64,000 bases of DNA from positions 261,970 to 325,969 of the forward strand of contig NZ_KL544005.1 of NCBI RefSeq assembly GCF_000711985.1, in the 5' to 3' direction. Positions 3,490 through 45,175 of the stretch are shown one piece after another (positions within the stretch are counted from its first letter, which is position 1; each line of letters begins with the position of its first letter). The notes under the pieces are model-generated. The model had not been told where the DNA came from. It did not search any database and saw only the letters and a program-made list of their open reading frames with translations. This DNA comes from Rheinheimera texasensis DSM 17496 (lineage in GTDB: Bacteria; Pseudomonadota; Gammaproteobacteria; Enterobacterales; Alteromonadaceae). The position numbers and the translations under genes are program-made.

Positions 3490-3616
3490 CAATAAGATCT
3501 CCGAGGGTCTGATGATTAGACATCAACCTGATGACTGTACCCGTCGACAACTGACCGGTCAATCCGGCACACTGAGCGCCAGGGCCTACAATCGAACGCA
3601 AAGCTGCCGGAAAGAT

Positions 3617-3940
3617 ATGAAGCCGAAAAAATTGAGTCTCTGGTCGGGTTGGCTGGCGCTGCTGATGCTGCAGCCGTTCGGGCTTAGTGCAGAGCCCGCG
3701 TTCTGGTATCGCTGGCAAAGTGTCAAAACCGGCAAATATATCTGCAAACAAACCGGGCCGGGGCCAGGCTGGGTCAAACACAGCGGGCCTTATCTGGACG
3801 GCGGTTGTCGTGTGTTAAAGCAACCACCACCGGAAAAAGCGCAATCTGCGGCGCAGTCCGCGTTTACGCTTGCGGCTGCGGAAATGCTTTCAATGCCGTA
3901 CGGGCGATATTGTGCAACTGCTCAGCACAAGCACCATTAG
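3617..3940 (+). CDS. Small exported Cys-containing protein of unknown function
   Basis: A 107-residue protein with a clear signal peptide: basic MKPKK, a hydrophobic core, and a probable cut after the Ala of LSA near residue 25. The mature part begins with a Trp/Tyr-rich motif WYRWQSVKTGKYICKQTGPG followed by GWVKHSGPYLDGGC, in which two cysteines could pair. The tail is Ala/Gln-rich and has no recognised domain. The start at 3617 has GGAAAG a few bases upstream; the longer frame from 3512 lacks a signal peptide at its start and was not used. Its last 77 bases overlap the 3' end of the TetR gene on the other strand, so one of the two stops may be less certain than usual. I do not know its function. 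Confidence 0.6.
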   Translation: MKPKKLSLWSGWLALLMLQPFGLSAEPAFWYRWQSVKTGKYICKQTGPGPGWVKHSGPYLDGGCRVLKQPPPEKAQSAAQSAFTLAAAEMLSMPYGRYCATAQHKHH

Positions 3941-4502
3941 TCGCCTGTACTGATAGTCCCTGTAACACCGTGATAATAAAACCAGCCAGCCCCTGCGGGT
4001 CAGCATCCGCAGGCAAATCGCCAGCCGCTTTGGCCTGTTCAAACCGCTGCACCAACTGTTCAAAACCAGCTTTACGCCGTGCAATCAAAGCATCTTTCAC
4101 CGACTGACCGCTGTCACTGCAGGCCAAAGCGCCCTGCACCATCAGACATCCCGGCGGATGCTGCGGATTACTGTGTTCGGCCGCTGCGCCAAGCAGGATC
4201 CGCTCTGCGACCCGATAAGCCGTGGGCTCGGCCATCGACGGATAAAAAAACGCGCTGGGCCGGTTTTCATAGCGCTCTATCGCTTTGAGAAATAACTGTT
4301 CTTTATTGCCAAAAGCGGCATAGAGGCTGGGTTTGTTGATGCCCATGGCTTCAGTTAAGTCAGGCAGAGATGCGCCTTCATAACCTTTCTGCCAGAACAC
4401 TTCGAGCGCTTTTTGCAGCGCAGTTTCCAAATCAAAAGCGCGTGGCCGGCCAACCGGCGCGCTGTTATTGCATGTTGTGCTGTTTAGGGTGTTTGCACTC
4501 AT
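3864..4502 (-). CDS. TetR/AcrR family repressor of the efflux operon
   Basis: A 212-residue one-component regulator. Residues about 18-70 form the TetR helix-turn-helix domain (GRPRAFDLETALQKALEVFW, then GASLPDLTEAMGINKPSLYAAFGNKEQLF). The remainder is a ligand-binding alpha-helical domain with the HPPGCLMVQG pattern common in the YxaF/AcrR-like subgroup. GAGG lies before the ATG at 4502. It is divergently placed from an RND efflux operon, and the shared 359-bp interval contains three copies of a TetR-type near-palindrome over a promoter. It is therefore very probably the local repressor, relieved by a pump substrate. The inducer cannot be inferred. Confidence 0.92.
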   Translation of the reverse strand: MSANTLNSTTCNNSAPVGRPRAFDLETALQKALEVFWQKGYEGASLPDLTEAMGINKPSLYAAFGNKEQLFLKAIERYENRPSAFFYPSMAEPTAYRVAERILLGAAAEHSNPQHPPGCLMVQGALACSDSGQSVKDALIARRKAGFEQLVQRFEQAKAAGDLPADADPQGLAGFIITVLQGLSVQATNGACAEQLHNIARTALKAFPQPQA

Positions 4503-31473: not shown

Positions 31474-32511
31474 ATGAAATCACTGCTGTTTTTTGCCTTG
31501 CTGTTCAGTGCAGCACTGCAGGCATTGCCCAAGGGCTCGACCTTATACCCGCTGCCCGATGGTGCGTTGCATGTCAGGCTGATGCAGCCTGACAGCCAAA
31601 AAACACAGCAGGTTGATACGGCAATAGTGCTGATCGCCGGCCCTAATGAATACTTTTTTGCCGATAGCGGTTTTTTTGCCTTATTGCAGCCGGTGTTAGC
31701 AAAGCATCACCGCACTTATGCAGTAGACCGGCAAAGCAGTGGCTTCAGTTCAGACACCGCCACACCGTCTTATCGCAGGTTCGCCAAAGATTTAGCGCAG
31801 GTGTTACCGCAGTTACAGGCGAAAAAATTTCTGCTGGTCAGCTTCGCCAGTGGCAGTATCACAGCCCGTCTGCTGGCCGATGATCCGGCTATAGCGCCCC
31901 GTCTGCACGGTTTGTTGCTGCTGGACCCGGACGTTCCCACGCCAGCCGCACTCGAGCTTTATAATGGTGCACCGGCCGACTGGTATCGGGCGCATCTGCT
32001 TGAACTCCTGCCGGAACTGGCCAAAGGCGTGTGGAATGACAGAACTGCCAAAAAAATCAGTGCAGAACTGACGCAAATCCGCCAGTTAGTGCCGACGGCA
32101 CAGCAGCAATTGACTGACTGGGATTACCTGCAGCAACTGCAGGCGAGCCGTTTGCCAGTGAACCGTCAACAGGCCAGAGCGATAGAAATTGCCCAGTATC
32201 AGGCCGATTTAGCCGCTTATAGCCAAACCCCCTGGCAACAGAGTGCGGTACCAGTGTCAGTGGTGGACGGTGATTTTGAAGCGCCTTTGATCGCAGAAGC
32301 CAAAGAAGACAAAGCCCGCCTTGCACGCTGGCGGCAGGATGGGCTCGAATTCGCTGCTACTTTGGCGAAAAACAGTGGCGGCCGTTTTGTCGCCTTGCCG
32401 GCACAGAACCATTTGCTGATGTTCAGCCATAGCGCTGAGCTGACACAGCTAATTGACGAACTAATCGCTGCACCCGCCGGTGCAGCATCTGGCAACTCAG
32501 CCCGCCGCTAA
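31474..32511 (+). CDS. Exported alpha/beta hydrolase
   Basis: A 345-residue protein with a signal peptide (MKSLLFFALLFSAALQA) and an alpha/beta hydrolase fold. The nucleophile elbow is at SFASGSITARLL, with Ser in the G/A-x-S-x-G/S position, after the strand KKFLLVSF. The oxyanion region is IVLIAGPNEYFF, and the late catalytic His is in AQNHLLMFSHSAEL. An esterase or lipase-like activity in the periplasm is inferred; the substrate is unknown. The ATG at 31474 has AGGA seven bases upstream; the longer reading from 31387 adds an unconvincing N-terminus. The 3' end overlaps the convergent ROK kinase gene by 15 bp. Confidence 0.8.
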   Translation: MKSLLFFALLFSAALQALPKGSTLYPLPDGALHVRLMQPDSQKTQQVDTAIVLIAGPNEYFFADSGFFALLQPVLAKHHRTYAVDRQSSGFSSDTATPSYRRFAKDLAQVLPQLQAKKFLLVSFASGSITARLLADDPAIAPRLHGLLLLDPDVPTPAALELYNGAPADWYRAHLLELLPELAKGVWNDRTAKKISAELTQIRQLVPTAQQQLTDWDYLQQLQASRLPVNRQQARAIEIAQYQADLAAYSQTPWQQSAVPVSVVDGDFEAPLIAEAKEDKARLARWRQDGLEFAATLAKNSGGRFVALPAQNHLLMFSHSAELTQLIDELIAAPAGAASGNSARR

Positions 32512-33408
32512 ACGTGCGCCCAGAATCGCCGCACCGCGCTCGCCACTGGCGGCGCCAAACTCAGCGCGGCGCAGCGGTGGCACTTCGACACCGGCAAACA
32601 GATGGCGGCTGATTGCGGCCGGTAACGCCGCGAAGATTTCATCAATGTCAGACAAACCGCCGCCAAGCACCAGCACGTCCGGATCATAAGCCAGCACCTG
32701 CGCCGCTAAGGCCGCCCCCAAGGCGTCCAGATAACAGGCAAAACAATGTTGCGCCACTGCATCACCGGCACGCAGCGCCTGCAACCAGTCGTAAGTGGTC
32801 ACTTGTCGCTGACTGAAATGCGTGTAAAGCCGGGCCAATCCAGTACCGGAAATATAAGTCTCCGCACAACCATCCAGGCCACAACCACAGCGATACAGCG
32901 GCAACTGATATTTGGCCAGCACCCGGGCCGCAATCGACTGATGGCCCAGCTCGCCGGCCAGCTGATGCCGGCCCTGATAGAGTTCACCATCAACACAAAG
33001 ACCACCGCCGGCACCGGTGCCCAGGATCACGCCAAATACCCGGCGATAACCGCGGCCAGCGCCAAGCAAAGCTTCTGACAACACAAACAGCCTGCAGTCA
33101 TTACCAATCGCCACCGGACGCTGCAAACGTGCGGTTAAATCAGTGCCGACCAACTGCTGATTCAGGCAAGCCACATTGGATGAGGTCACCAGCCCCTGTG
33201 GCGCCACCACGCCAGGCAAAGCAATACCCACCGCTGCTTTGTGGCCAAATTTCTGGTCCGCCAGCGCCACCTGCGCACTGACAGTTTGCAAAAACACGGC
33301 ATAATCATCAGTTGGCGTCGGTACGCGCCAGCGCTCGACCAGGCTAAAATCGGGCCGAAATACCGCCATTTCAATTTTGGTGCCGCCAATATCCAGACCA
33401 TAAATCAT
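32497..33408 (-). CDS. ROK family amino-sugar kinase (GalNAc/GlcNAc kinase)
   Basis: A 303-residue sugar kinase. ATP-phosphate loop GLDIGGTKIEMAVF at the start; catalytic Asp in GNDCRLFVLSEALLGAG; GTGAGGGL second loop; and the ROK zinc motif HQ...RCGCGLDGCAETYISG. The overall pattern is nearest to NagK-type N-acetylglucosamine kinases. Because it is the last gene of a run with agaS, the KbaZ-type gene and agaR, phosphorylation of N-acetylgalactosamine to GalNAc-6-phosphate (the AgaK role) is the likely function; this is inferred from context. Its ATG overlaps the stop of agaS (TGATG), and GGAG lies upstream. A longer start at 33489 was rejected because it runs inside agaS. Confidence 0.88.
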   Translation of the reverse strand: MIYGLDIGGTKIEMAVFRPDFSLVERWRVPTPTDDYAVFLQTVSAQVALADQKFGHKAAVGIALPGVVAPQGLVTSSNVACLNQQLVGTDLTARLQRPVAIGNDCRLFVLSEALLGAGRGYRRVFGVILGTGAGGGLCVDGELYQGRHQLAGELGHQSIAARVLAKYQLPLYRCGCGLDGCAETYISGTGLARLYTHFSQRQVTTYDWLQALRAGDAVAQHCFACYLDALGAALAAQVLAYDPDVLVLGGGLSDIDEIFAALPAAISRHLFAGVEVPPLRRAEFGAASGERGAAILGARLAAG

Positions 33409-34571
33409 CAGGCTCTCTCCGTAAGTGTCGGGGCGAACGGATATAAAGTTACGCCCTGCACCACCCGGTTGACTTCGCCGGTCGGACACGGATTATCTGG
33501 TGAGATCTGAAGCTGCAGCGCTTTAAAAAATGCCAGCGTCTGGCAATACACAATCAGTGGCAAAGCCAACCAGGCATCTGCCAGCGAATCAGCACCACAA
33601 CAGCTGTCGAACTTTACCAGCCGGGTATAGGCAGCCCGGCGGTCACGGTGCACTTCTTCATATAAATCAACATCGTACTTTGCGGTATAGGGGTCGTTCG
33701 AACGCAAAATAAACACTTGAGTCTGCGCATTCACTACCGACTTCGGGCCATGGCGAAAACCAAGGCTGCTTTCATAAAAACTGCTGATTTGGCCTGCGGT
33801 CAGTTCCAGATATTTCAGTGCCGCTTCGCGGGCGATGCCGGCCAGGCCGCCACTGCCGACAAAAACCACACGCTCAGCTGGTAATTCGGCCTCGGCGCGG
33901 ACCGCCGCACTTTGCGACAGTAGCTGTTTTGTCACGTCAATAGTCTTGCTGAGCTGTGACTGCTCTGGCTGAAACAGCCATAAAGTCGCCAGATACATAC
34001 CGGTAAAACTGCTGGTCATGGCAAAACTGCGGTCGTGGCAAGCGTCCGGCAATTGCAGCACCTTACTCTGGCGATGGTTCTGGCCATATTGCGCCAGTCG
34101 CCCGGCGGCATTGCAGGTGATGATCAGATGCCGGCAATCCGGTACTAACTGATCAGCCAGCTCGGTGGTTTTCAGGCTTTCCGGGCTGTTGCCGGAGCGG
34201 CCGTAACTGATCAGCAATGTCGGATATTGCGCCTGCAGATATTGCGCCGGATTACTGACCAAATCTGTAGTACTGATAGCCTCCAGTCGCTGCGTCGGGT
34301 GTGGTAGTCCTACCGAGAGCGCCGGCAATAACGCCTGGCCAATGTAAGCCGAAGTGCCGGCGCCGGTCAGAATAATGCGCAGGCCGGGTTCAGCCAGTTG
34401 TACCCTGAACCACTGGCTGAGTTCAGTGTCAGCATTGATTTGGCTGACAATTTGCTGCCAGATGCTTGGCTGCTGAGCAATTTCGCGCGCCGTCCATTCT
34501 GCGGCGGCTTCAGATAAGCAAGCTGCAGTCAGGCCCAGTGTTGTTGAATTTGATAAAGAGTAAGCGACCAC
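33408..34571 (-). CDS. agaS: Galactosamine-6-phosphate deaminase/isomerase AgaS
   Basis: A 387-residue protein with two SIS (sugar isomerase) domains. The first (about 45-190) has GAGTSAYIGQALLP and SYGRSGNSPES. The second (about 210-370) has GSGGLAGIAREAALKYLELTAG followed by SFYESSLGFRHGPKS, the sugar-phosphate site region characteristic of AgaS. In the aga pathway AgaS converts galactosamine-6-phosphate to tagatose-6-phosphate and ammonia. The start is GTG 34571, seven bases after GGGAG; the longer frame from 34649 runs inside the upstream aldolase-subunit gene. It is 22 bp from that gene and one base overlapped with the kinase gene, so this is a tight operon, presumably repressed by AgaR. 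Confidence 0.92.
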   Translation of the reverse strand: MVAYSLSNSTTLGLTAACLSEAAAEWTAREIAQQPSIWQQIVSQINADTELSQWFRVQLAEPGLRIILTGAGTSAYIGQALLPALSVGLPHPTQRLEAISTTDLVSNPAQYLQAQYPTLLISYGRSGNSPESLKTTELADQLVPDCRHLIITCNAAGRLAQYGQNHRQSKVLQLPDACHDRSFAMTSSFTGMYLATLWLFQPEQSQLSKTIDVTKQLLSQSAAVRAEAELPAERVVFVGSGGLAGIAREAALKYLELTAGQISSFYESSLGFRHGPKSVVNAQTQVFILRSNDPYTAKYDVDLYEEVHRDRRAAYTRLVKFDSCCGADSLADAWLALPLIVYCQTLAFFKALQLQISPDNPCPTGEVNRVVQGVTLYPFAPTLTERA

Positions 34572-34593
34572 AATAAAACTCCCGGACCCGGTT

Positions 34594-35922
34594 TCAGGCT
34601 GCTTGCGCAGGTAAAGACGGTACAGCCGCCAGACCGCAGGCACTGGCATACATTTGTAGCACCAGGCGGATATGATGTTCCACCAACGCCACAGGCTCAG
34701 CTACCAGCAGACCATTCAGCACGGCCTGATACTGCTGTGGCATAAACTGGCTTAATAACGGCAGCGGAATTTGGTTTTGGCTCAGGTTGCCGACAAGCCG
34801 GCTCACCGCCTGCTGTAAGGCCGGCTGTTGCCAGTAGTAACGAATGCGGTCGCTGTAACTGTATTGGCGCAGCAACTGCTGCTCCAACATATTGCCGGGA
34901 TAAAATTTCTGCCAATAGCCAGGCTGCAACTGCATCACCCGCTCGCACACGGCGATAAGGTGCGACTGCTGCTCCACCGGCACCAGTTGTTGTTCGATGT
35001 AACAGAGCGCAAACAACGCTTCGCGCAGCGCAAAAGTCAGCTGAGGCCCGACTTTAAGAATGGCAAAATGCTGTTGCACCAGCTGCTGATAGCGGCTTTG
35101 TGGCTGGTAATCTGTGGAATGGGCCTCAAAGACTAGCGCTGGGTCTTTACTAATAAAATCAGCAAGTTGTACGCTCGCCACCGCATCAAATGCATGCACC
35201 TGGGTATTATCAAACTCAACGCCAGGCTGTACCACTACGGCAATGACTTTTTGCCAGACATCATCGCCTAAACCCAAACTGGCAAAGGCCTGCTGATGCA
35301 CCGCGATAGTGGCCGCGACATTAGCAACCGGAGTAGGCTCAAGATGTTGCTCAAGGCTGCTGACGCCGCCGGGCGCCGGCACTTCAGTGCCAATCACGTA
35401 ACAAAGCTGAACCAGGGACTGCTGGCCCGCTGCGATTTGTTCAGCCAGCGTTTGCTCGGCAACCTGGCACAACCGCGCCGCACGCGCTGCGATCACCGCA
35501 TCCGGCAGTGGTTTTGGGTCATCAGCACAAGGCATGCTGGTGTCCAAATGGATTTTATGAAAACCGGCGCGGACGAAAGCCACGATTAAGGTTTCAGCTT
35601 TGGCCATCGCCACTGCCGCAGGCTCTGCCGTCCAGCACACCGGGCCTAAGTGATCACCACCAAAACACAGTTGGTTCATGCACAGGCCCTGCTCCGCCGC
35701 CAGCTCTTTGACGAAGGCAATAAAATCAGCCGGTTGCATGCCGGTGTAACCACCGTCCTGATTGACCTGATTGGCAGTAGCTTCAATCAAAAGCAGCGAT
35801 TGATCCGCTTTGGCCTGTTGGATGGCTGCCCTCAGCACCATCGGGTGCGCCGAGCAGACTGCGTAGATTCCCTTGCTTTGGCCCTTTTTGTTGGCGCAAA
35901 GCAGTTCAAGCAAAGCGTTCAT
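34594..35922 (-). CDS. kbaZ: D-tagatose-bisphosphate aldolase non-catalytic subunit, KbaZ/GatZ/AgaZ type
   Basis: A 442-residue protein with the family hallmarks: IYAVCSAHPMVLRAA near the start, LIEATANQVNQDGGYTGM, FGGDHLGP, the HLDTSMPCADDP segment, FEAHSTDYQ, and LKVGPQLTFALREALFAL. In E. coli the KbaZ/GatZ proteins stabilise the catalytic aldolase KbaY/GatY. Some have been proposed to act as tagatose-6-phosphate kinase. The catalytic partner is not in this window, which leaves the role open. It lies between agaR (8 bp) and agaS (22 bp) in one transcript. The length is normal for the family (about 420-430). Confidence 0.92.
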   Translation of the reverse strand: MNALLELLCANKKGQSKGIYAVCSAHPMVLRAAIQQAKADQSLLLIEATANQVNQDGGYTGMQPADFIAFVKELAAEQGLCMNQLCFGGDHLGPVCWTAEPAAVAMAKAETLIVAFVRAGFHKIHLDTSMPCADDPKPLPDAVIAARAARLCQVAEQTLAEQIAAGQQSLVQLCYVIGTEVPAPGGVSSLEQHLEPTPVANVAATIAVHQQAFASLGLGDDVWQKVIAVVVQPGVEFDNTQVHAFDAVASVQLADFISKDPALVFEAHSTDYQPQSRYQQLVQQHFAILKVGPQLTFALREALFALCYIEQQLVPVEQQSHLIAVCERVMQLQPGYWQKFYPGNMLEQQLLRQYSYSDRIRYYWQQPALQQAVSRLVGNLSQNQIPLPLLSQFMPQQYQAVLNGLLVAEPVALVEHHIRLVLQMYASACGLAAVPSLPAQAA

Positions 35923-35930
35923 ACCCCTCC

Positions 35931-36707
35931 TTATGGACTGATCACATGCACTTGCACCCCCATCCGGGTCAGCTCTTCAACATAAGCCGGCGGAATTCCG
36001 GCATCTGTCACCAGCGTATGCACTTGCATCACATTACAAATCAGATGAAAACCACGACGGTCAAACTTGGATGAATCAGTGACCACTATCACTTCGCGCG
36101 CCACTTCACACATCAGCCGGTTCAACGTCGCCTCGGCTTCAAAGTGGGTCGACAGGCCGGTTTTTAAATCAAAGCCATCCACCCCTAACACAACTTTGTC
36201 GAACTGATAGTTTTTCAGCGCCTGCTCGGCCTGAGCACCATAAAACGACATCGATTTTTTCCTGAGCGTGCCGCCGGTCATCATCACTTCGACTTTGTCG
36301 ACCTGCGACAATTCCAGCGCGATGTTCAGACCGTTGGTCATCACAATCAGGTTTTTATGTTCACGTAAATTCGCTGCCACTTCTTCAGTGGTGGTGCCGG
36401 AATCGAGGATGATGCGTTCATCATCTTTAATCAGCGCAGCCACTGCGCGACCCAGCCGCTGCTTGAGTTCCGAATGCTTCTGCCGTTTTTCTTTTAACGA
36501 CAACTCGCGACTTAGATCATCGTTAACCATGGCGCCACCACGCGAGCGCACCAGCAGTCGTTTGCTATCAAGCACAGCCAAATCACTGCGGATCGTCACT
36601 TCAGATACGCCAAAGCGCTGCGACAATTCCGCCACCGACACTTTGCCCCGGGCATTGGTCAACCGGACTATTTCCTGCTGCCGTTCAATGGTATTTAAGG
36701 TTTCCAC
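35931..36707 (-). CDS. agaR: DeoR family repressor AgaR
   Basis: A 258-residue DeoR-family repressor. The N-terminal HTH covers about 6-58 (RQQEIVRLTNARGKVSVAEL then FGVSEVTIRSDLAVLDSK), and the sugar-phosphate sensor domain includes ILDSGTTTEEVAANLREHKNLIVMTNGLNIA, DKVVLGVDGFDLKTGLSTHFEAEA and VTDSSKFDRRGFHLIC. It is placed first in the agaR-kbaZ-agaS-kinase run, which points to AgaR, the repressor of N-acetylgalactosamine utilisation, released by a pathway amino-sugar phosphate. The intergenic region in front of it is enriched in CTTTC pentamers, the core of AgaR sites, so autoregulation and control of the divergent receptor-glycosidase operon are expected. Confidence 0.9.
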   Translation of the reverse strand: METLNTIERQQEIVRLTNARGKVSVAELSQRFGVSEVTIRSDLAVLDSKRLLVRSRGGAMVNDDLSRELSLKEKRQKHSELKQRLGRAVAALIKDDERIILDSGTTTEEVAANLREHKNLIVMTNGLNIALELSQVDKVEVMMTGGTLRKKSMSFYGAQAEQALKNYQFDKVVLGVDGFDLKTGLSTHFEAEATLNRLMCEVAREVIVVTDSSKFDRRGFHLICNVMQVHTLVTDAGIPPAYVEELTRMGVQVHVISP

Positions 36708-37162
36708 CTTGTCTCCCTGCCCGTTACCGGGCTGTTGCGTTGTACCTTACCAGCTAAAATAAAACTTTCAATATCTTTCGTTTTATTTCTTTTGCTGCAT
36801 TTCCATTAATGACTGCTGATATTCAAAAGTCTACTTTATTAAAGTGAAATAAAATAAACACTAATATCATATACACATCAATACTTTAGCCAATCAAGAG
36901 GCATTTTAATCAACACCTCAGCATAACTTTCAGATCTATTCGAAGCCAATTTTAGCGCCAAATCTTCTAATCGAAAACAAAATAAACATTGCGATCACTT
37001 TCGGCTCAGATTTATAAAGAATCTCGAAAGGTTTTGATCGCTGTCGTAATCGTCTAACTGTCGTCAAGCTGTGCTTTCACTGCAGTTTACGCCAACTGAC
37101 GTTCTGACGATATCAGCTTTCGAAATATTCAAAACAAAAAATAACCACAGCGTGGAGGGACT
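36708..37162. promoter_or_regulatory. Divergent regulatory region of the GalNAc locus
   Basis: This 455-bp AT-rich gap between agaR and the TonB-dependent receptor holds no gene. Six CTTTC pentamers lie on the plus strand (36765, 36775, 36927, 36998, 37074, 37117) and one on the minus strand (37026-37030). About one would be expected by chance. AgaR motifs in proteobacteria are known to be built from repeated CTTTC units. Confidence 0.7.
36765..36789. promoter_or_regulatory. Candidate AgaR operator (YTTTC units one helical turn apart)
   Basis: CTTTC at 36765, CTTTC at 36775 and ATTTC at 36785 are spaced exactly 10 bp, facing the same side of the helix. The cluster lies about 60 bp before the agaR start codon. 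Confidence 0.6.
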
Positions 37163-39979
37163 ATGTCACAGGGTACATTTCGATATCACAAGCTGGCGCA
37201 GCTGGTGATGCTGGCCATACTGGCACCGCAGCAAGCTTTCGCAGCAGATGCCGACAGCGACAAACAAAAGCAGAAGAAAGCCAAAACCGAACAAGTCGAA
37301 AAAATTCAGGTTACTGGTATTCGCAGCAGTATTAAAGAATCGCTATTTTTAAAACAAAATGCGGTGTCGGTGATCGATGTGGTCGTGGCTGAGGATATCG
37401 GCAAATTTCCCGACGAAAATCTGGCAGAGGCGCTGCAACGGGTGCCTGGCATCACTATCACCCGTAACGGCGGTGAAGGCCAGAAAGTCATAGTCCGTGG
37501 TATGGGTGATGGCTACAACGTGACGACTGTCAACGGCCGGCGCGTTGCTTCCGAAAACAGCGGCCGTGATTTTAACTACGATACTATCGCCTCAGAACTG
37601 GTCAACTCTATCGCTGTATACAAATCGCCGGAAGCGCGCTTGCAGGAAGGCGGCATTGGCGCTGTGGTCGACATTCAGACCCGCAAACCGCTAGATTTAA
37701 AAGGTTTTACCCTGACAGGTTCGGCCAAAGGCGTCTATGAAAACCGTACCGGCGACACCCAGCCGCATGCGTCTTTTCTAGTTGGCGATTTATTCGAAGA
37801 TGGCAAACTCGGCGTGATTTTCACCGGTGCATATTCAGAACGCACCATCCGTAATGACACTTATTCAGCCTCAGGTTTTTATGACGAGCAGGAAGGCGTG
37901 ACCGAAGCGACCTTACCGATCGACAAAAACAACGATGGCAAAATCGACGAAGCCAGCGAATTATTTCCATCCAAAATCCCGGCTTACATGTATTACGCCA
38001 ACGCGCAGGACGTGCGGGAACGGATGGGCGGCACGCTGTCACTGCAATATCAGCCGAACGACTGGATTGACCTGAGCCTCGATACTATTTATTCACGTTA
38101 TACCACCAAAGGTAACCGCTACCAGATTGGTTTCGTCAACTATGACGAGAGTTGGACGCCGGGCACACCGCTGTTTAACAACGCCAGTTTTGGCCCGGAT
38201 GGCCGGGTGACTGCGGTAACACAAACCGCCAATCCGATGGTGGAGCTTTTAAACTTAACGACACCGCGCAAAACTGACACCTGGCAAGTTGGTGCCAATG
38301 CCAAATTCCAAATCAGTGAGTCGTTCAGCCTGACAGCCGATGCATCCAGTTCAGAAGCCAAAGATCAAAACAACGGTGATAACCGCTTTATTGTGGCGCG
38401 CGGTTTTGTCGACTCAATCAAAATCGACTACAGCAAAGACAATAAACTGCCGGACGTGACCATAGCTCCGGCGCTGAATGCCGACCAAACCTACGGCGCG
38501 CACTACAGCTACAACAGCGGCACCGGCGTCACTGATAAAGTCGACGAAGCCAAGCTGATTGGCCAGTATAAAATTGACGATTCAGTGCTGACGCAGGTCG
38601 ATTTTGGTCTGACCTACGGCAAACAAAGCAAAGGCCGCAGTGAATATTCGTCGAAAAACCCCAGCCAGTTCAGTCGCGGCGGTTTTTATCTGGCGCGGGA
38701 TAAATACACCTTTGATGCCAGTTCGGTGTTTAAACAAGGTGAATTTGAACTGTTCCGCATCCCCAAAGACGTGTTCGTTGCACCGAATTTCGACAATTTC
38801 CTCGACGGCGAAAACAGTATCCAGCCCAATCCATGGCCAAGCTTTGACTATGACAAACTGCTGGCGTTTTACCGTTCCATTAATGCCGAAGCGGCGGACA
38901 AAAGCATTGTCGCGAGCTTAAATCAGGCCGGTGCATTTGAAGTCAGCGAAGCTGTGACCGCTGCTTTTATTCAGGCCAATATTGAAGATACGGTATTTGG
39001 TCTGCCGTATTCGTTAAACCTCGGTCTACGTCAAAGCAAAACTGAAGTCACCAGTGAAGGTTATTCCTATGATTTCAGCAAAATTACCCTTGATAGCGCA
39101 GGGTTACCATCGAACAGTGACTGGCGCAAGATTGTCCGCGTCAGCTATGACGGCAGCTACAGTAAGTTATTGCCAAGCATGAACTTTAAACTGAGTTTGC
39201 AGGATGATTTACAACTGAGGGTCTCGGCTGCAGAAGTGATGGCAAGGCCAAGCCTCGATCAGTTAAAACCTTGGGTATCGCCCAATTACACCAGCAAGGT
39301 CAATGGCTTGCCGGAGCTGGATATCCGTTTTCCGGATCTGCCTCCAGAGCTGGCCAATCAATATGACGTGACACTGGAATGGTATCTGGCTGACAGTTCG
39401 CAGCTGGCGTTGGGCTATTTTGTCAAAGACATCAAGTCCTTCATTGATACAAAAAAAGGCAAAGTGACCTTTGGTACTATTGATTATTGGGCCACCTATC
39501 CGGCAGTTGGTGAATATGGCGCGAAAATTAATGGCCTGGAAGCAGCCTGGCAACAATCGATGGAACAATGGTTACCGTCACCTTTTGATGGTTTGGGTAT
39601 TCAGCTGAACTATACCTATGTTGACAGCAAGTTTGACGACCCGGCATTAAAAGACTTGTCCTACACCGGCATGTCAAAAGACTCCTACAACGCCGTGGTG
39701 TATTACGAAAAATATGGCGTGCAGGCGCGACTGGCCTACAACTGGCGCAGCAAGTTCCTCAGCTACCCGGGTGACTGGGGTGGTGACAGCTGGACTGCCG
39801 CTTATGGCCAGCTGGATGCCAGCGCCAGCTACGACTTTAACGAACACCTGACAGTGTTTGTCGAAGCGTCGAACCTGACCAATGAACGTTATTGGGGTTA
39901 TGTCAAACAACCGGATCAGGTCAATTATCTGGAACGCTTTGGTACCCAGATTGCGGTTGGTGTGCGCGGTAACTTCTAA
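37163..39979 (+). CDS. TonB-dependent outer membrane receptor for a GalNAc-containing ligand
   Basis: A 938-residue receptor with a signal peptide (cut near AFA, residue 27), a TonB-box-like EKIQVTG (about 46-52), a plug domain (to about 175, with RVPGITITRNGGEGQKVIVRG), and a 22-strand-type barrel ending in the aromatic VGVRGNF. The architecture is the long Xanthomonas/Caulobacter-type carbohydrate receptor (TIGR01782-like). An acidic EF-hand-like loop, DKNNDGKIDE at 254-263, could bind calcium. Placed after AgaR sites and before the secreted GH31 enzyme, it is inferred to import N-acetylgalactosamine or small glycans. GGAGG precedes the ATG. No nearby tonB-exbBD is present. Confidence 0.92.
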   Translation: MSQGTFRYHKLAQLVMLAILAPQQAFAADADSDKQKQKKAKTEQVEKIQVTGIRSSIKESLFLKQNAVSVIDVVVAEDIGKFPDENLAEALQRVPGITITRNGGEGQKVIVRGMGDGYNVTTVNGRRVASENSGRDFNYDTIASELVNSIAVYKSPEARLQEGGIGAVVDIQTRKPLDLKGFTLTGSAKGVYENRTGDTQPHASFLVGDLFEDGKLGVIFTGAYSERTIRNDTYSASGFYDEQEGVTEATLPIDKNNDGKIDEASELFPSKIPAYMYYANAQDVRERMGGTLSLQYQPNDWIDLSLDTIYSRYTTKGNRYQIGFVNYDESWTPGTPLFNNASFGPDGRVTAVTQTANPMVELLNLTTPRKTDTWQVGANAKFQISESFSLTADASSSEAKDQNNGDNRFIVARGFVDSIKIDYSKDNKLPDVTIAPALNADQTYGAHYSYNSGTGVTDKVDEAKLIGQYKIDDSVLTQVDFGLTYGKQSKGRSEYSSKNPSQFSRGGFYLARDKYTFDASSVFKQGEFELFRIPKDVFVAPNFDNFLDGENSIQPNPWPSFDYDKLLAFYRSINAEAADKSIVASLNQAGAFEVSEAVTAAFIQANIEDTVFGLPYSLNLGLRQSKTEVTSEGYSYDFSKITLDSAGLPSNSDWRKIVRVSYDGSYSKLLPSMNFKLSLQDDLQLRVSAAEVMARPSLDQLKPWVSPNYTSKVNGLPELDIRFPDLPPELANQYDVTLEWYLADSSQLALGYFVKDIKSFIDTKKGKVTFGTIDYWATYPAVGEYGAKINGLEAAWQQSMEQWLPSPFDGLGIQLNYTYVDSKFDDPALKDLSYTGMSKDSYNAVVYYEKYGVQARLAYNWRSKFLSYPGDWGGDSWTAAYGQLDASASYDFNEHLTVFVEASNLTNERYWGYVKQPDQVNYLERFGTQIAVGVRGNF

Positions 39980-39982
39980 GCT

Positions 39983-40066
39983 GCGGACCAAACGAGCTGT
40001 AAACGACTGCGCTGGCATGGCCAGTTGTAAACAACCCAGCTGGCTTGGCCAGTTGTAAACAAGTTG
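39983..40066 (+). repeat. 28-bp tandem repeat (three units) between receptor and glycosidase genes
   Basis: Two close copies of GCTGGCWTGGCCAGTTGTAA plus ACAA start at 40011 and 40039. A degenerate third copy starts at 39983 (sharing TGTAAAC at the same phase). The unit is 28 bp and contains TGGCCA. It lies in the transcribed gap right after the receptor stop. Confidence 0.8.
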
Positions 40067-40070
40067 TACG

Positions 40071-40118
40071 CTGCCCGGCTTTCGGGCAGCATCTTCCAAT
40101 GCCGCCGTCCCAGGCGGC
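40071..40118 (+). other. Two RNA hairpins in the receptor-glycosidase gap
   Basis: CTGCCCG-N5-CGGGCAG (40071-40089) and GCCGCC-N6-GGCGGC (40101-40118). Neither is followed by a T-run, so they more likely stabilise or modulate the mRNA between the two genes than end it. Confidence 0.55.
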
Positions 40119-40144
40119 ACTGCTTTATCTGAGGAATCCTGAAA

Positions 40145-43100
40145 ATGCTGATGTCGGCTGCTAAGTTACTGTTGGATAGAAAGTTCCCTAAACGCCCGCT
40201 GGCTGTTTCTGTGTCTGTTTTGCTGCTGTCGGTACCACTCAGCCACACCGTCCACGCGGCGCCGGTCGGCAATCTAAGTGCGCTGCAACAGCAAGCCGGG
40301 ATGATCCAAATCTCCACCGACGCCAAAGTCGCCGTGACAGTCCAGCTGTTAAAACCCGATTTACTGCGCATCCGAGCCGGCCTGAACGGCACGCTGAGCG
40401 ACGAAGGCAGCAAAGCTGCGCCTATTGTGATCAAAACCGACTATGCGCCTGTGCCTTATCAGCTTAAAGATATGGGCGATTATCAGCTGGTCAGCACCGA
40501 AGCAATGGCGCTTCGGATCTACAAAACACCACTGACTTTTGCCCTGTATAAAGCCGACAACCAGACGCTGATAGTGCAAGAGCTGCAGCCGCTTGAACTG
40601 AATGACAGCAAAGGCAGTGCGCAAAGCGTGCAGACCTTAAGTACCACGCCGGACGAGCGCTTTTACGGCGGTGGTCAGCAAAATGGTGCCTTTGAATTTA
40701 AAGGCAAAAGTATGGAGATTTCCTATTCCGGCGGCTGGGAAGAAGGCGACCGACCAAGCCCGGCACCGTTTTATTTATCGAGTAAGGGTTATGGCGTGCT
40801 CAGAAATACCTGGGCCAATGGCAGCTACGACTTCCGCTCGGCTGAATACCTGAATTTATCGCATCAGGAAGGCCGTTTTGATGTTTATTTCTTTGCGGGC
40901 GGTTCGATTCAGGACGTCTTAGCGGACTACACCGAACTGACTGGCCGCGCCAGGCTGATCCCGCGCTGGGCCTTTGAATATGGCGACGCCGATTGTTACA
41001 ACGACGGCGACAACGGGAAAAAACCCGGCACAGTACCGGATGGCTGGACTGACGGCCCAACCGGCACTACACCGGATGTGATTGAAACCGTTGCCAAAAA
41101 ATACCGCGAACACGACATGCCGGGCGGCTGGATTCTCCCCAACGACGGCTACGGCTGTGGTTACACCGATTTACCCAAAGTAGTCAAAGGCCTCGCTAAA
41201 TACGGTTTCAGAACCGGGCTTTGGACCGAAAACGGCGTCGATAAAATCGCCTGGGAAGTCGGCACTGCCGGCAGCCGAGCACAAAAACTTGACGTGGCCT
41301 GGACCGGCCAGGGTTATCAGTTTGCTTTAGATGCCAATAAAGCCGCGGCAGATGGCATTTTAGATAACTCCGACTCCCGGCCATTTTTATGGACAGTGAT
41401 GGGCTGGGCAGGCATGCAACGCTACGCCGTGACCTGGACCGGCGACCAGTCGGCCAGCTGGGACTATATCCGCTGGCATATTCCAACACTGATTGGCTCA
41501 GGCTTGTCCGGTCAGGCCTATGCCACCGGCGATGTCGATGCGATTTTTGGTGGCAGCCCTGAGACTTATACCCGCGATTTACAATGGAAGGCCTTTACGC
41601 CCGTGTTAATGGGCATGTCCGGCTGGTCGAAAGCGGCGCGCAAGCACCCCTGGTGGTATGACGAGCCCTACCGCAGCATTAACCGCGATTACCTGAAACT
41701 GAAAATGCGCCTGACACCTTATATGTACACACTGGCACATGAGACGGAACAAACCGGCGCGCCGATAGTGCGCGGCCTGATGTGGGATTATCCGCAGACG
41801 CCCAAAGCCTTAACCGAAGCGCATAAATATCAGTTTTTACTCGGCCGCGATTTACTGGTGGCGCCGGTGTATCGCTCACAAACCGCCAGTCAGGGCTGGC
41901 GCAAAAACGTGTTTTTACCGCAAGGCCAATGGATAGATTATTGGGATGGCCGCGTCGTTGATGCGTCTGCAGCCGGCCAGCTGCTGGATTATCAGGTCGA
42001 TTTAAAAACCATCCCGCTGTTTGTCCGCGCCGGCGCCATTATCCCGATGTATGACGCCATGTTGTATGACGGTGAAAAACCCAAAGATGTGCTGACGCTG
42101 GATATCTACCCTCATGGCGACAGCGCATTAAGCCTGTACGAGGATGACGGCAACACGCGACAGTATCAGCAAGGGGCGTTCAGTACCCAGCAATTCAGTG
42201 TCAAAGCGCCATCTTTTGCCAGCGGCAAAGCCGGTGACATTCAGGTCGAGATCGCGCCGGTCAGCGGCCAGTATCAGGGCCAGGAACCAGCACGGGTGTA
42301 TCAGCTGCAACTACACAGTCGGGTCAAACCCGATGCGGTGCAGCTGAACGGCAAGCCGCTGCCGACCCTGCCGGACGCCACCGCTTTTGCCAAGGCCAGT
42401 GCCGGCTGGTATTTCAGCATTGAAAAATACGGTGTGGTGCATGTTAAAACCGCCAAAACCGATATCCGTCAGGCGCTTAGTTTCACCGTGCAAATCAATG
42501 GCGGGCAAAGCCTTGCCGCCACCGCCGGTTATGCCAAAGCACCGGATCTTGGCAATGAAATCGCCGCCGATAGCATTCTGGTGCTGAACCGGCCGGCGGA
42601 AGAATCCGGTCATGTGCTGGAAAACGCTTTTGACGGCAAACCCGGTACCTGGTTTCGCACCAAACGCGACCAGTCGCTGAAAACCGGTGCCCATGAATTT
42701 ACGCTGGCACTCGGCGAGCGACGCATGGTGAATGGCTTTGAAATCGCACCGCGCAACGACCAGCATTGGCAATATGGTCAGGTCGCCGATTATGAGGTTT
42801 ATCTGGGCGAGAACAATGGCGAATGGGGTGAGCCGGTCGCGCGCGGCCGTTTGCAAAAACTGCAGCAAAAACAAAAGGTCGAGTTTGAAGCTCGCCCCGG
42901 CAGTTTATTCCGCTTCCGGATCTTAAGCACACAAGATCAAGCAGAGGCAGACCCAATGGTAACAGCTGCGGCCCAAGGCAGCGCCAAAGCCTATAACGCT
43001 TTATTGCCAAAAGTGGTGAGCCCGATTGCGATTTCTGAGTTCCGTGTGCTGCAACAACCGGAACCTGAAACGGAGCCGGTCCAGCTGTTTTTGGCAGAGC

Positions 43101-43525
43101 AAAAACCGCTGCGAAGCGATAACGCAAGCGGACCGGTCGAGCTGAATCAAAGCAACGGCGGCAACAAAGCTAATGATGGCGCTGTGATGTCGATGAATGG
43201 GCTGAAATTCCGTAAAGGCCTTGGCGTGGCGGCGCAAAGCCGGATTGATTATCAGCTGACCGGCCAATGGCGGTTGCTACGTGCCGATGTCGGTATTGAC
43301 GACAGCTGCCGCGATAAAGGCGGTGTGCAGTTCCAGATTTATGGCGACGATAAGCTACTGTACGACTCAGGCCTGGTCCAAGCGCCGGCGGTGGTGAAAC
43401 CGGAGCTTGATATCCGCGGCATCCGCCTGTTAAGCCTGCGGACTACCGGCGGCAAGGCAGGTGTTTGTGCCAACTGGGCCAATGCCTCAGTGCTGGGATA
43501 CCCGGCGAAAAATAGCAAGTTGTAA
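40145..43525 (+). CDS. Secreted GH31 glycosidase with CBM32-like and NPCBM modules, probable alpha-N-acetylgalactosaminidase
   Basis: An 1126-residue exported enzyme. Signal peptide to about 39, then an N-terminal beta-sandwich (FYGGGQQNGAFEFKGK at about 173-188). The GH31 barrel spans about 270-620: RWAFEYGDADCY, KLDVAWTG with likely nucleophile Asp383, and VTWTGDQSASW with likely acid/base Asp434, then GSGLSGQAYATGDVDAIFGG. A C-terminal GH31 beta domain follows, then an F5/8C (CBM32-like) module at about 811-972 and an NPCBM (CBM51-like) module at about 980-1119. The sequence style around both catalytic residues, with a 51-residue spacing, resembles the GH31 alpha-GalNAcase subgroup rather than alpha-glucosidases. 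This fits the GalNAc catabolic genes next door. Substrate is inferred. GAGGA lies nine bases before the ATG. It is co-transcribed with the receptor. Confidence 0.85.
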   Translation: MLMSAAKLLLDRKFPKRPLAVSVSVLLLSVPLSHTVHAAPVGNLSALQQQAGMIQISTDAKVAVTVQLLKPDLLRIRAGLNGTLSDEGSKAAPIVIKTDYAPVPYQLKDMGDYQLVSTEAMALRIYKTPLTFALYKADNQTLIVQELQPLELNDSKGSAQSVQTLSTTPDERFYGGGQQNGAFEFKGKSMEISYSGGWEEGDRPSPAPFYLSSKGYGVLRNTWANGSYDFRSAEYLNLSHQEGRFDVYFFAGGSIQDVLADYTELTGRARLIPRWAFEYGDADCYNDGDNGKKPGTVPDGWTDGPTGTTPDVIETVAKKYREHDMPGGWILPNDGYGCGYTDLPKVVKGLAKYGFRTGLWTENGVDKIAWEVGTAGSRAQKLDVAWTGQGYQFALDANKAAADGILDNSDSRPFLWTVMGWAGMQRYAVTWTGDQSASWDYIRWHIPTLIGSGLSGQAYATGDVDAIFGGSPETYTRDLQWKAFTPVLMGMSGWSKAARKHPWWYDEPYRSINRDYLKLKMRLTPYMYTLAHETEQTGAPIVRGLMWDYPQTPKALTEAHKYQFLLGRDLLVAPVYRSQTASQGWRKNVFLPQGQWIDYWDGRVVDASAAGQLLDYQVDLKTIPLFVRAGAIIPMYDAMLYDGEKPKDVLTLDIYPHGDSALSLYEDDGNTRQYQQGAFSTQQFSVKAPSFASGKAGDIQVEIAPVSGQYQGQEPARVYQLQLHSRVKPDAVQLNGKPLPTLPDATAFAKASAGWYFSIEKYGVVHVKTAKTDIRQALSFTVQINGGQSLAATAGYAKAPDLGNEIAADSILVLNRPAEESGHVLENAFDGKPGTWFRTKRDQSLKTGAHEFTLALGERRMVNGFEIAPRNDQHWQYGQVADYEVYLGENNGEWGEPVARGRLQKLQQKQKVEFEARPGSLFRFRILSTQDQAEADPMVTAAAQGSAKAYNALLPKVVSPIAISEFRVLQQPEPETEPVQLFLAEQKPLRSDNASGPVELNQSNGGNKANDGAVMSMNGLKFRKGLGVAAQSRIDYQLTGQWRLLRADVGIDDSCRDKGGVQFQIYGDDKLLYDSGLVQAPAVVKPELDIRGIRLLSLRTTGGKAGVCANWANASVLGYPAKNSKL

Positions 43526-43675: not shown

Positions 43676-45175
43676 ATGCGCTTACGTTATTCATTTGCCT
43701 TGTTGGCTTTGAGCATCAGCGGCCTGACTCAGGCCGCCATAGATCCACAATATCAGTACCTGAACGCCCTGCCGGCCCCACAGGATACGCTGGTGCTGCC
43801 ACTGCGCAGCAACGATGTCAAAGACGGCAAGCACAGCCTGCTCACCGACCCACAGCTAAAACAGCAAATAGCTGCCGCCGGTTTTACCGGCAAAGCGGGT
43901 ACCATCAGCCAGCTTTATCAGGTCGCGGGTTATCAACGGGTATTGCTATTGGGCCTGGGTGATAAGCCGGTGATCGCCGATGACAAGCTGGCCGCTTATG
44001 GCGGCGATTTAGCGGTAGCGCTGGATAAAAGCAGTGCGCAGCAGGTCACCATTGATGGCCGTTATCTGGCCGCGATGCCACAGCTGATCCATGGCCTGGA
44101 GCTGCGGGCCTATCGCTTTGACCAGCTGAAATCCAAAGCAGAAGCGCCACGCAAAGTTGCGGTGAATGTGGTAGTGGCAGATGTCAAAAATGCTGAGCAA
44201 CAGCATCAGCAGCTACAAGCCGTGGCCGAGGGCGTCTATCTGGCGCGTGATCTGACCAATCTACCGGCCGCTGATTTAACACCACAAAGCTTCGCTGAAG
44301 CTGCTTTGGCGCTACAAAAGCTCGGTGTCAAAGTCACGGTACTGGATGAAAAAGCCATCGACAAGCTCGGCATGGGTGCTTTGGCGGCTGTCGGTCGCGG
44401 CAGTGAGCGCCCGCCACGCCTCGTGATCGCACAGTGGCAGGGCGATAATAAAGCGCCGCTGGCGATCGTCGGTAAAGGCATCACCTTTGATACCGGCGGT
44501 TACAACCTGAAAACTGATGGCGAATCCATAGTGCGGATGACCAGCGACATGGCGGGTGCGGCAGCTGTGCTTGGTACTATCAAAGCGCTGGCGCTGCAAA
44601 AAGCCAAAGTGAATGTGGTCGGCCTGATGGCGATGGCGGAAAACATGATTTCCTCCAACGCGTATTTACCCGGTGATGTATTAAAAACCGCGCAGGGCCT
44701 GACAGTGCAAATCACCTCGACAGACGCCGAAGGCCGTTTGGTGATGGCCGATGCGATGTGGTACGCCCGCAAAGAATACCAACCGCGCGCCATGGTGGAC
44801 ATTGCCACTTTAACCGGCAGTAAAGTCGGCGCGCTGGGCAGTTACTACGCCGGGCTTTTCAGTGAAGATGAAGCCTTGACCGGCGCTTTGTTACAAGCCG
44901 CGAAACAGAGTGGCGAGCCGCTGTGGCGTTTACCGCTCAGCGATGAATTTGCCGGCGAACTGAAAAGTGACATTGCGGATTTACGCAACACCGGCAAAAC
45001 CACCGGCGCCTCGACCGCTGCCTGGTTCCTGAAACAATTCGCCGGTGACACGCCCTGGGCCCATCTGGATATCGCCGGCAATGCGCTCGCCAGCAGCGAC
45101 AAAGGCGTGCATCCCACTGGTGCCACCGGTTTTGGTGTTCGTCTGTTAACCCAGTGGTCGCTGCAACAGCCATAA
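43676..45175 (+). CDS. Exported M17 leucyl aminopeptidase family protein
   Basis: A 499-residue M17 aminopeptidase with a clear signal peptide (MRLRYSFALLALSISGLTQA), unlike the cytosolic PepA. The active-site elements are kept: GKGITFDTGG with the metal-binding Lys and Asp, SDMAGAAAV, AENMISSNAYLPGDVL and the signature STDAEGRLVMADA with its bicarbonate-site Arg. Two metal ions would cleave N-terminal residues from peptides in the periplasm or outside. The segment YNLKTDGESIVRM differs slightly from the usual SISLKP loop. GGGAG lies five bases before the ATG. It is a single-gene unit closed by a strong terminator. Confidence 0.93.
   Translation: MRLRYSFALLALSISGLTQAAIDPQYQYLNALPAPQDTLVLPLRSNDVKDGKHSLLTDPQLKQQIAAAGFTGKAGTISQLYQVAGYQRVLLLGLGDKPVIADDKLAAYGGDLAVALDKSSAQQVTIDGRYLAAMPQLIHGLELRAYRFDQLKSKAEAPRKVAVNVVVADVKNAEQQHQQLQAVAEGVYLARDLTNLPAADLTPQSFAEAALALQKLGVKVTVLDEKAIDKLGMGALAAVGRGSERPPRLVIAQWQGDNKAPLAIVGKGITFDTGGYNLKTDGESIVRMTSDMAGAAAVLGTIKALALQKAKVNVVGLMAMAENMISSNAYLPGDVLKTAQGLTVQITSTDAEGRLVMADAMWYARKEYQPRAMVDIATLTGSKVGALGSYYAGLFSEDEALTGALLQAAKQSGEPLWRLPLSDEFAGELKSDIADLRNTGKTTGASTAAWFLKQFAGDTPWAHLDIAGNALASSDKGVHPTGATGFGVRLLTQWSLQQP

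Follow-up and report, generated by a model that had tools for sequence, protein, structure and literature searches.

The 64,000-nt window, the whole stretch of DNA that was analysed (Rheinheimera texasensis DSM 17496, GCF_000711985.1, NZ_KL544005.1 positions 261,970-325,969, forward strand), contains an agaR-agaZ-agaS-ROK kinase run that is divergent from a TonB-dependent receptor gene and a gene encoding a GH31-CBM32-NPCBM protein (Table 1). All six genes have the coordinates and strands given in the first-pass annotation. Specifically, the Aga regulon members AgaS, AgaZ and AgaR and the kinase are all present, with AgaR and AgaZ (583 bits to TIGR02810, cut-off 569) scoring over their NCBIfam cut-offs, and AgaS and the kinase, whose best NCBIfam model is NagK (278 bits, cut-off 380), scoring under theirs. 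In its listed form the agaS reading frame shares 56 bp with agaZ, and the true agaS start is therefore probably internal. For the kinase, 33408 (MIYGLDIGG) is the most likely start, not 33489; the kinase gene holds the same position at loci L022, L023 and L031, the first of which encodes a 303-aa orthologue. On the other arm, Pfam and NCBIfam models resolve GH31, F5/8 type C (CBM32-like) and NPCBM domains behind a signal-peptide-like start, judged by eye, which agrees with the earlier description of this enzyme as secreted. The M17 aminopeptidase encoded next to it also has a signal-peptide-like N-terminus (by eye) and, among the genus loci seen, adjoins GH31 only in the window, L022 and L028.

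Table 1. Features of the locus, with positions counted in the window.
Feature	Position	Strand	Evidence
agaK, ROK sugar kinase, probable GalNAc kinase	32497..33408	-	PF00480, 209 bits
agaS, AgaS family	33408..34649	-	TIGR02815, 430 bits, under cut-off 529; PF01380 SIS
agaZ/kbaZ, tagatose-bisphosphate aldolase subunit or proposed Tag-6-P kinase	34594..35922	-	PF08013, 601 bits
agaR, DeoR-family repressor	35931..36707	-	NF040755 AgaR, 344 bits, cut-off 260
Candidate AgaR-type operator CTTTCAATATCTTTCGTTTT, between agaR and receptor	36765..36784	+	pattern match
TonB-dependent receptor, possible importer of GalNAc or GalNAc-peptides	37163..39979	+	TIGR01782 TonB-Xanth-Caul, 638 bits, cut-off 310
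GH31 (GH31_18-type) predicted alpha-N-acetylgalactosaminidase, probably exported; CBM32-like + NPCBM	40145..43525	+	family models, tree, alignment
M17 leucyl aminopeptidase, possible associate, directly downstream of GH31	43676..45175	+	PF00883, 386 bits

The candidate operator is the sole exact match in the genome to CTTTCRNNNNCTTTCRTTTT, a pattern built on this same region. The candidate CTTTC tandem site also precedes agaR, exactly, at five further loci of the genus, L022, L023, L024, L031 and L141, and with one mismatch at L032, and appears at L030 only at two mismatches. No site within two mismatches was found in five GH109-type loci, and none within three mismatches in the 165-bp gap between the receptor and GH31 genes. 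Because the genome holds 18 matches at up to two mismatches versus 11 in a reversed control, only the exact site was used and AgaR sites beyond the locus were rejected. A site with three mismatches upstream of an orphan GH109 gene (L142) is only suggestive.

The GH31 domain is closest, among GH31 enzymes, to a characterised alpha-N-acetylgalactosaminidase (alpha-GalNAcase), which by sequence points to GH31_18 membership. Among PDB entries it matches the E. faecalis alpha-GalNAcase (6m76/7f7q/7f7r) best, with 371 bits versus 188 for the next GH31, and a 30-row profile gives 522 bits versus 268. A control segment from another GH31 of the genus (L015) instead scores 449 against the oligosaccharide 4-alpha-glucosyltransferase 4b9y and 110 against the alpha-GalNAcase. 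In the tree, which holds only one GH31_18 reference and long branches that are flagged, the alpha-GalNAcase and all 30 window-type rows form one 100/100 clade that excludes the five remaining PDB segments and nine further GH31 sequences. DVAWTG and WTGDQ are present in each of the 30 window-type rows, whereas W.D[LM][GN]E is found in 9/9 other GH31 sequences (seven from the genus, two from the order). By alignment, D383 would be the nucleophile and D434, in WTGDQ, the acid/base, a role that we take the aspartate of WTGD to play; D383 lines up with the residue mutated in the PDB entries, to N in 7f7r and to A in 7f7q, and both aspartates are invariant in the 30 aligned orthologues. Bit scores, profile, control, tree and motifs thus agree on a predicted alpha-GalNAcase. 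The first-pass annotation had read Asp383 and Asp434 as pointing to this activity and had proposed a phylogenetic placement: the letters are right, and the domain falls with the alpha-GalNAcase, apart from other GH31. An AlphaFold model (mean pLDDT 65.9, below 50 over residues 353-483) has a barrel too poor to use, and the structural route was dropped.

GH31_18 is reported to include every GH31 that acts on alpha-GalNAc and to show no further activity (PMC13096917). Its characterised enzymes reportedly cut core GalNAc on mucin (PMC11992087, PMC11790493), with Amuc_1008 acting solely on core GalNAc on peptide (PMC11790493). The blood-group-A-like substrates proposed earlier are not supported: BT3169 and the GH31 enzymes of B. 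caccae and E. faecalis reportedly do not act on blood group A (PMC11992087). The H. mucinilytica GH31_18 is reported to cleave pNP-alpha-GalNAc but none of the native substrates it was given (PMC13096917). That native-substrate result counts against the best explanation offered below.

A scan that kept the best 80 of 198 GH31 relatives (59-95% identity) spans beta- and gammaproteobacteria. At 55 of these best 80 loci, agaR, agaZ, agaS and agaK all lie within 10 kb of GH31, at 22 none of the four is near it, and agaS is divergent from GH31 in 56 of 58. At L032, a single run of genes comprises GH31, agaR-Z-S-K, an amidohydrolase and an MFS permease. GH31 beside aga genes is common in beta- and gammaproteobacteria, but the window's receptor is not: its type occurs at only 3-4 of the same 80 loci, with relatives at L045 (91%), L047 (77%), L061 (48%) and L101 (27%) only. 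Receptor relatives also stand at the GH109-type aga loci L136-L140 (64-65%), and one at L032 (51%). Genome G009 is syntenic with the window, and all six genes recur in an identical layout in G013 and G020; given these relatives and the clustering in the scan, the arrangement is beyond chance. GH31 next to aga genes was not met in the titles and abstract openings searched; Leyn 2012 and Rahfeld 2019 were outside their reach, and we do not claim absence from print.

Among 22 genomes of the genus, GH31 occurs in 10, agaZ in 11 and both in six. Since agaZ accompanies GH31 in 6/10 carriers versus 5/12 non-carriers, the other four carriers having no agaZ anywhere, genus co-occurrence was rejected as evidence, and it is the clustering, rather than presence or absence, that carries the link. 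Indeed, GH31 is not tied to aga, and G011, G017 and G019 keep it with no aga genes adjacent. GH109, an established alpha-GalNAcase family, tracks agaZ better than GH31 does, being found in 10/11 agaZ genomes and 0/11 others (E 1e-20). In five sister genomes the aga operon holds GH109 in place of GH31; all five genus genomes with agaZ but without GH31 have GH109 inside the operon. The R. texasensis genome has a GH109 as well, elsewhere than at the window locus, and GH31 may therefore be dispensable. Taken together, the clustering in the scan, the same-layout relatives and the GH109-type sister loci support the tie to GalNAc catabolism that was first suggested.

Neither a GalNAc-6-P deacetylase nor an inner-membrane permease gene was found in the window locus. 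Two strong nagA matches sit at L042 and L043, whose genes look like those of GlcNAc clusters; there the nearest deacetylase copies share 59% and 53% identity with the agaA-like protein of L136, and the nearest permease copies 64% and 59% with its agaP-like protein. In E. coli, NagA is reported to replace AgaA (PMC3668189). The earlier statement that GalNAc is fed directly to the aga pathway thus stands for the aga link, but "directly" is too strong, as the deacetylase and permease steps are missing from the locus.

From the observed gene content, family and clade placement, catalytic residues, conservation and candidate operator, we infer the activities, substrate, localisation, transport specificity and regulation of what is probably an AgaR-controlled GalNAc scavenging locus with an exported GH31 alpha-GalNAcase. 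The exported enzyme would hydrolyse alpha-linked GalNAc, and its most likely target is the core GalNAc that mucin-type glycopeptides carry on Ser/Thr; its CBM32-like and NPCBM domains would anchor it on galacto-configured glycans, and the TonB-dependent receptor would bring in small GalNAc-peptides or GalNAc itself. The cytoplasmic steps would begin with the formation of GalNAc-6-P by the ROK kinase; a NagA recruited from a GlcNAc cluster would then deacetylate it, AgaS would convert GalN-6-P to tagatose-6-P, and AgaZ, acting as aldolase subunit or as Tag-6-P kinase, the latter a literature proposal (PMC4694137), would yield triose phosphates together with the single PF01116 aldolase. AgaR may repress both divergent arms via the CTTTC-type site.

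A different reading is that GalNAc is removed mainly to free peptide as a nitrogen source, with an exported-looking M17 aminopeptidase finishing the peptide and aga neighbours profiting in some species. The M17 gene with a signal-peptide-like start directly downstream of GH31 in the window, L022 and L028 is consistent with this, as are G011, G017 and G019, the genus carriers devoid of agaZ and the 22 scanned loci (best 80 of 198) without any of the four aga genes; yet M17 adjoins GH31 in just 3/10 genus GH31 genomes and all four aga genes lie near GH31 at the majority of scanned loci, and we regard this reading as improbable. A role of the locus in the use of GlcNAc-type or mixed aminosugars instead of GalNAc is very unlikely: the kinase does match NagK best, though under cut-off, but AgaZ and AgaR exceed theirs, the sister operon carries GH109, and the genome has two other clusters for GlcNAc, to judge from their genes (L042, L043).

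Most GH31 members have alpha-glucosidase-, alpha-xylosidase- or alpha-galactosidase-type activity, which speaks for another such alpha-glycosidase activity in this enzyme as well. The three NCBIfam models that it matches are indeed alpha-xylosidase (155 bits, cut-off 606), MalA (140, 800) and alpha-glucosidase (112, 553), all far under cut-off. Against this, PDB scores, profile, L015 control, tree and motifs place the protein with the alpha-GalNAcase, which makes another activity very unlikely; alpha-glucosidase or alpha-xylosidase identity was rejected on the PDB bit scores, control and tree.

Beyond the aga loci, eight of the best 80 of 198 loci carry a different cluster, consisting of a DgoK-like gene and partners, that is possibly an oxidative galactosamine route. 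Here galactosamine would be oxidised to galactosaminate, a D-serine-deaminase-like lyase helped by RidA would deaminate this to 2-keto-3-deoxygalactonate, and a DgoK-type kinase would phosphorylate the product; the word galactosaminate had no match in the literature searched. Of 21 searched genomes whose GH31 has no adjacent agaZ, 11 lack both agaZ and the alternative-cluster marker. That one environmental-proteobacterial GH31 alpha-GalNAcase lineage is coupled both to the phosphorylative Aga route and, in Oxalobacteraceae, to an undescribed oxidative route is a tentative and rather doubtful proposal.

Each part of the locus is of a known kind. The named characterised GH31_18 enzymes come mostly from gut bacteria (PMC11992087, PMC13096917, PMC11790493), and here the same type, extended by an NPCBM tail, occurs across beta- and gammaproteobacteria (80 loci kept of 198 relatives). 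The loci offer a source of O-glycan-trimming enzymes, show GH31 and GH109 naturally exchanged around a single operon, and provide a setting in which to test a possible second route of GalNAc catabolism. The closest known enzymes are the GH31_18 alpha-GalNAcases of E. faecalis (6m76/7f7q) and B. caccae, BT3169 and Amuc_1008; with that of E. faecalis, the one compared, the window enzyme shares DVAW and WTGD in its catalytic domain, and CBM32 domains are reported for the H. mucinilytica GH31_18 (PMC13096917), as the window enzyme has a CBM32-like one. Distinct from known GH31_18, the window type, known here from sequence, has NPCBM in 30/30 proteobacterial rows and hosts from water and soil, not gut. 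The Shewanella Aga pathway (PMC2996990) similarly uses a kinase and permease instead of a PTS, a dedicated outer-membrane receptor, agaK and agaS; the window differs in having GH31 clustered and in lacking the deacetylase and permease at the locus (AgaR and AgaZ were compared with E. coli, PMC4694137, not Shewanella). In the GH109-type aga operon of other Rheinheimera (L136-L140), the receptor is likewise divergent from agaR and the order agaZ, agaS, agaK is shared, whereas the alpha-GalNAcase is a GH109 inside the operon and deacetylase-like and permease-like genes then follow. The B. thetaiotaomicron PUL BT4240-50 (PMC11992087) also combines mucin GalNAc release and a GalNAc kinase, reported to act on O1, in one locus; unlike the window, it has GH109 in the locus, GH31 (BT3169) elsewhere and SusD-type binding.

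Family searches and coordinates show that the six-gene finding of the first-pass annotation is real (table below). The window lies in a 4.59-Mb Rheinheimera genome in which its GH31 is the sole match to PF01055. In a phmmer search of the PDB, the top hit is the E. faecalis GH31 alpha-N-acetylgalactosaminidase (371 bits, against 188 for 6jr6 and 160 for a cycloalternan-forming enzyme), and a profile built from 30 orthologues scores the top three different PDB proteins at 522, 268 and 198 bits. The L015 segment, taken from a different GH31 of the genus, served as control: its preferred match is 4b9y (oligosaccharide 4-alpha-glucosyltransferase, 449 bits), and it reaches 110 bits against the alpha-GalNAcase. 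A 45-row maximum-likelihood tree, built from 30 window-type rows, 7 other GH31 from the genus, 2 from the order and 6 PDB segments, unites the alpha-GalNAcase and all 30 window-type rows in a single group (support 100/100); because the tool flagged long branches and a single GH31_18 reference was included, this is a placement among sampled types, not a GH31 phylogeny. Within that scope, the comparison with alpha-GalNAcase and other GH31 enzymes proposed earlier comes out on the alpha-GalNAcase side. D383 lies within KLDVAW and aligns with the position occupied by N in 7f7r and by A in 7f7q, two entries of the E. faecalis enzyme; D434 lies in WTGDQ. DVAWTG and WTGDQ are present in 30/30 window-type rows, and the nucleophile stretch of the other GH31 reads W.D[LM][GN]E in 9/9. 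NPCBM is found in 30/30 rows and F5/8C (PF00754) in 27/30 (E 0.001), and by eye the N-terminus resembles a Sec signal peptide. The GH31_18 subfamily is reported (PMC13096917) to gather all alpha-GalNAc-active GH31 and no other activity.

Features of the window locus and of the related clusters
Feature	Location	Orientation	Basis
agaK	window 32497-33408	leftward	family searches
agaS, agaZ, agaR	beside agaK	leftward	family searches
Candidate AgaR-type site CTTTCAATATCTTTCGTTTT	window 36765-36784		exact match to CTTTCRNNNNCTTTCRTTTT
TonB-dependent receptor	window 37163-39979	rightward	family searches
GH31-F5/8C-NPCBM protein	window 40145-43525	rightward	family searches
M17 leucyl aminopeptidase, exported-looking	window 43676-45175		
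BadF-type kinase, SIS protein, NagP-like gene	L042 (window genome)		sequence reading
BadF-type kinase, SIS protein, NagP-like gene, GH89-like gene, receptor	L043 (window genome)		sequence reading
GH109 of the window genome	G000:C4:798281-799654 (L142:9276-10655)	minus (L142)	
LanB, LanC and GT2 genes (G004)	L024:7592-13700		
Example of the alternative cluster	L064:851-8423		

The GH31 reading finds its best contextual support in five sister genomes, where GH109, an unrelated enzyme with the same predicted activity, holds a place in the same operon. These genomes (G005, G008, G010, G012 and G016) have agaZ and no full-length window-type GH31, and all five share the order receptor, divergent from agaR - GH109 - agaZ - agaS - agaK - deacetylase-like - permease-like. 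The extra operon gene, tested in one of them (L136), matches PF21252 and the solved GH109 proteins 6t2b (495 bits) and 2ixa (293 bits), the latter an alpha-N-acetylgalactosaminidase. Ten of the 22 genus genomes carry GH109, and each of these also has agaZ; the only agaZ genome lacking GH109, G018, is 91% complete. The window genome itself carries a GH109, 78% identical to the sister-species operon protein, with no adjoining aga gene; this orphan has a twin-arginine-like start and, upstream, a weak AgaR-type site with 3 mismatches. In one metagenome-assembled genome (L061), a GH109-like gene, judged by eye, and GH31 share an aga locus.

A scan of genome contigs returned 198 GH31 relatives, of which the best 80, 59-95% identical, were retained; some of these loci are truncated by contig ends, and the 80 are not independent events because many come from close kin (Stenotrophomonas, Lysobacter, Janthinobacterium, Duganella). 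Among these best 80 of 198, agaR, agaZ and agaS lie within 10 kb of GH31 at 56 loci, the same three with agaK at 55, and all four with a NagA/AgaA-like deacetylase at 50; none of the four is that close at 22. Also within this set, agaS is divergent from GH31 at 56 of 58 loci, a window-type receptor occurs at four (91, 77, 48 and 27% identical) and an L032-like permease at two. GH31 beside aga genes is widespread. In G096, from another family of the order (locus L032), agaR-agaZ-agaS-agaK-amidohydrolase-GH31-MFS permease form a single run with the receptor divergent. A Bacillus subtilis SK7B5-titled record, L120 (JAHREJ010000011.1), bears a proteobacterial GH31-aga locus, and its assembly is therefore probably mislabelled or contaminated.

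Within the genus, the complete window layout is retained in G013, G020 and the near relative G009, whose GH31 is 95% identical to that of the window. G006 retains agaR, a kinase and GH31; G011, G017 and G019 have GH31 without adjoining aga genes; and G018 has the two on different contigs. Of the genus loci viewed, only those of G009, G018 and the window have the M17 gene directly after GH31. G004 (Rheinheimera riviphila) retains agaR-Z-S-K and GH31, with LanB (PF04738+PF14028), LanC (PF05147) and GT2 genes at the receptor position and a 66-aa precursor-like peptide (GGG and four Cys) in the same region, a predicted class I lanthipeptide-like cluster with glycosyltransferase beside the predicted GalNAc-cutting enzyme. 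In G018, two genes similar by eye adjoin GH31 (L029), and the agaS match (L141; C581:2712-3959) contains one in-frame TAG. This TAG probably precedes the true start, leaving agaS possibly intact, since a 392-aa frame is open from 2793 to 3971; an internal agaS start in the window would fit this frame.

The pattern CTTTCRNNNNCTTTCRTTTT has one exact match in the window genome and 17 others at two mismatches (reversed control, 11 matches); because it was built from the window region itself, uniqueness alone proves little. The evidence for this candidate operator is its conservation before agaR, exact at genus loci L022, L023, L024, L031 and L141 and with one mismatch in L032. A single operator common to all loci appears disfavoured, as the five GH109-type loci have no match within two mismatches and the best site of L030 has two.

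Direct feeding into the aga pathway, as first proposed, overstates the case, as deacetylase and permease are absent from the window locus. The two strong NagA matches in the window genome lie in L042 and L043, read from gene content as putative GlcNAc clusters, with names from sequence reading, not family search. Compared with the L136 agaA-like protein, their NagA-like proteins show 59% and 53% identity; the NagP-like proteins beside them reach 64% and 59% against the L136 permease. In E. coli, AgaA is replaceable by NagA, as reported in PMC3668189. The genome has a single PF01116 aldolase, whose neighbours look from sequence like genes for phosphoglycerate kinase and for a dehydrogenase of GAPDH type; a Tag-6-P kinase role has been proposed for AgaZ (PMC12118421, PMC4694137).

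The most surprising matter is an alternative cluster outside the window. Among the best 80 of 198, a DgoK-like gene (PF05035, 135 bits, tested in L056) lies near GH31 at eight loci (L051, L053, L056, L057, L059, L060, L064 and L067), partnered by a LysR gene (8/8), a ~400-aa protein (7/8), RidA (6/8), an SDR (5/8) and a D-serine-deaminase-like PLP protein (5/8; 3gwq, 351 bits, tested in L059). Several have sugar ABC genes, and L053 and L059 a NagP-type MFS. The ~400-aa protein had no Pfam or NCBIfam match (tested in L056) and no PDB match (tested in L064). Of the best 80, 24 loci lack agaZ nearby, including L122, with agaS at a contig edge. Among 21 of their genomes searched, including G011 and G019 (loci L046 and L050), 3 had agaZ and 8 the ~400-aa marker, with 1 carrying both, and 11 had neither; the marker was absent from 4/4 aga-type genomes added to the same search. 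The predicted chemistry fits a possible oxidative galactosamine route in Oxalobacteraceae; a literature search did not find the word 'galactosaminate'.

Taken together, the main interpretation is likely right, with substrate, completeness and uniqueness corrected, and the component parts are all of known kinds. Blood group A, one of the substrates first suggested, is unlikely for the window GH31: according to PMC11992087, it is left uncut by BT3169 and by the GH31 enzymes of B. caccae and E. faecalis, and BT3169 is active on desialylated submaxillary mucin and inactive on free Tn antigen. Amuc_1008 takes off core GalNAc on peptide only (PMC11790493). By analogy with these reported GH31 activities, a mucin-type O-glycopeptide would be the likeliest substrate, and blood group A could instead be cleaved by a GH109, as BT4243 of that family acts on it (PMC11992087).
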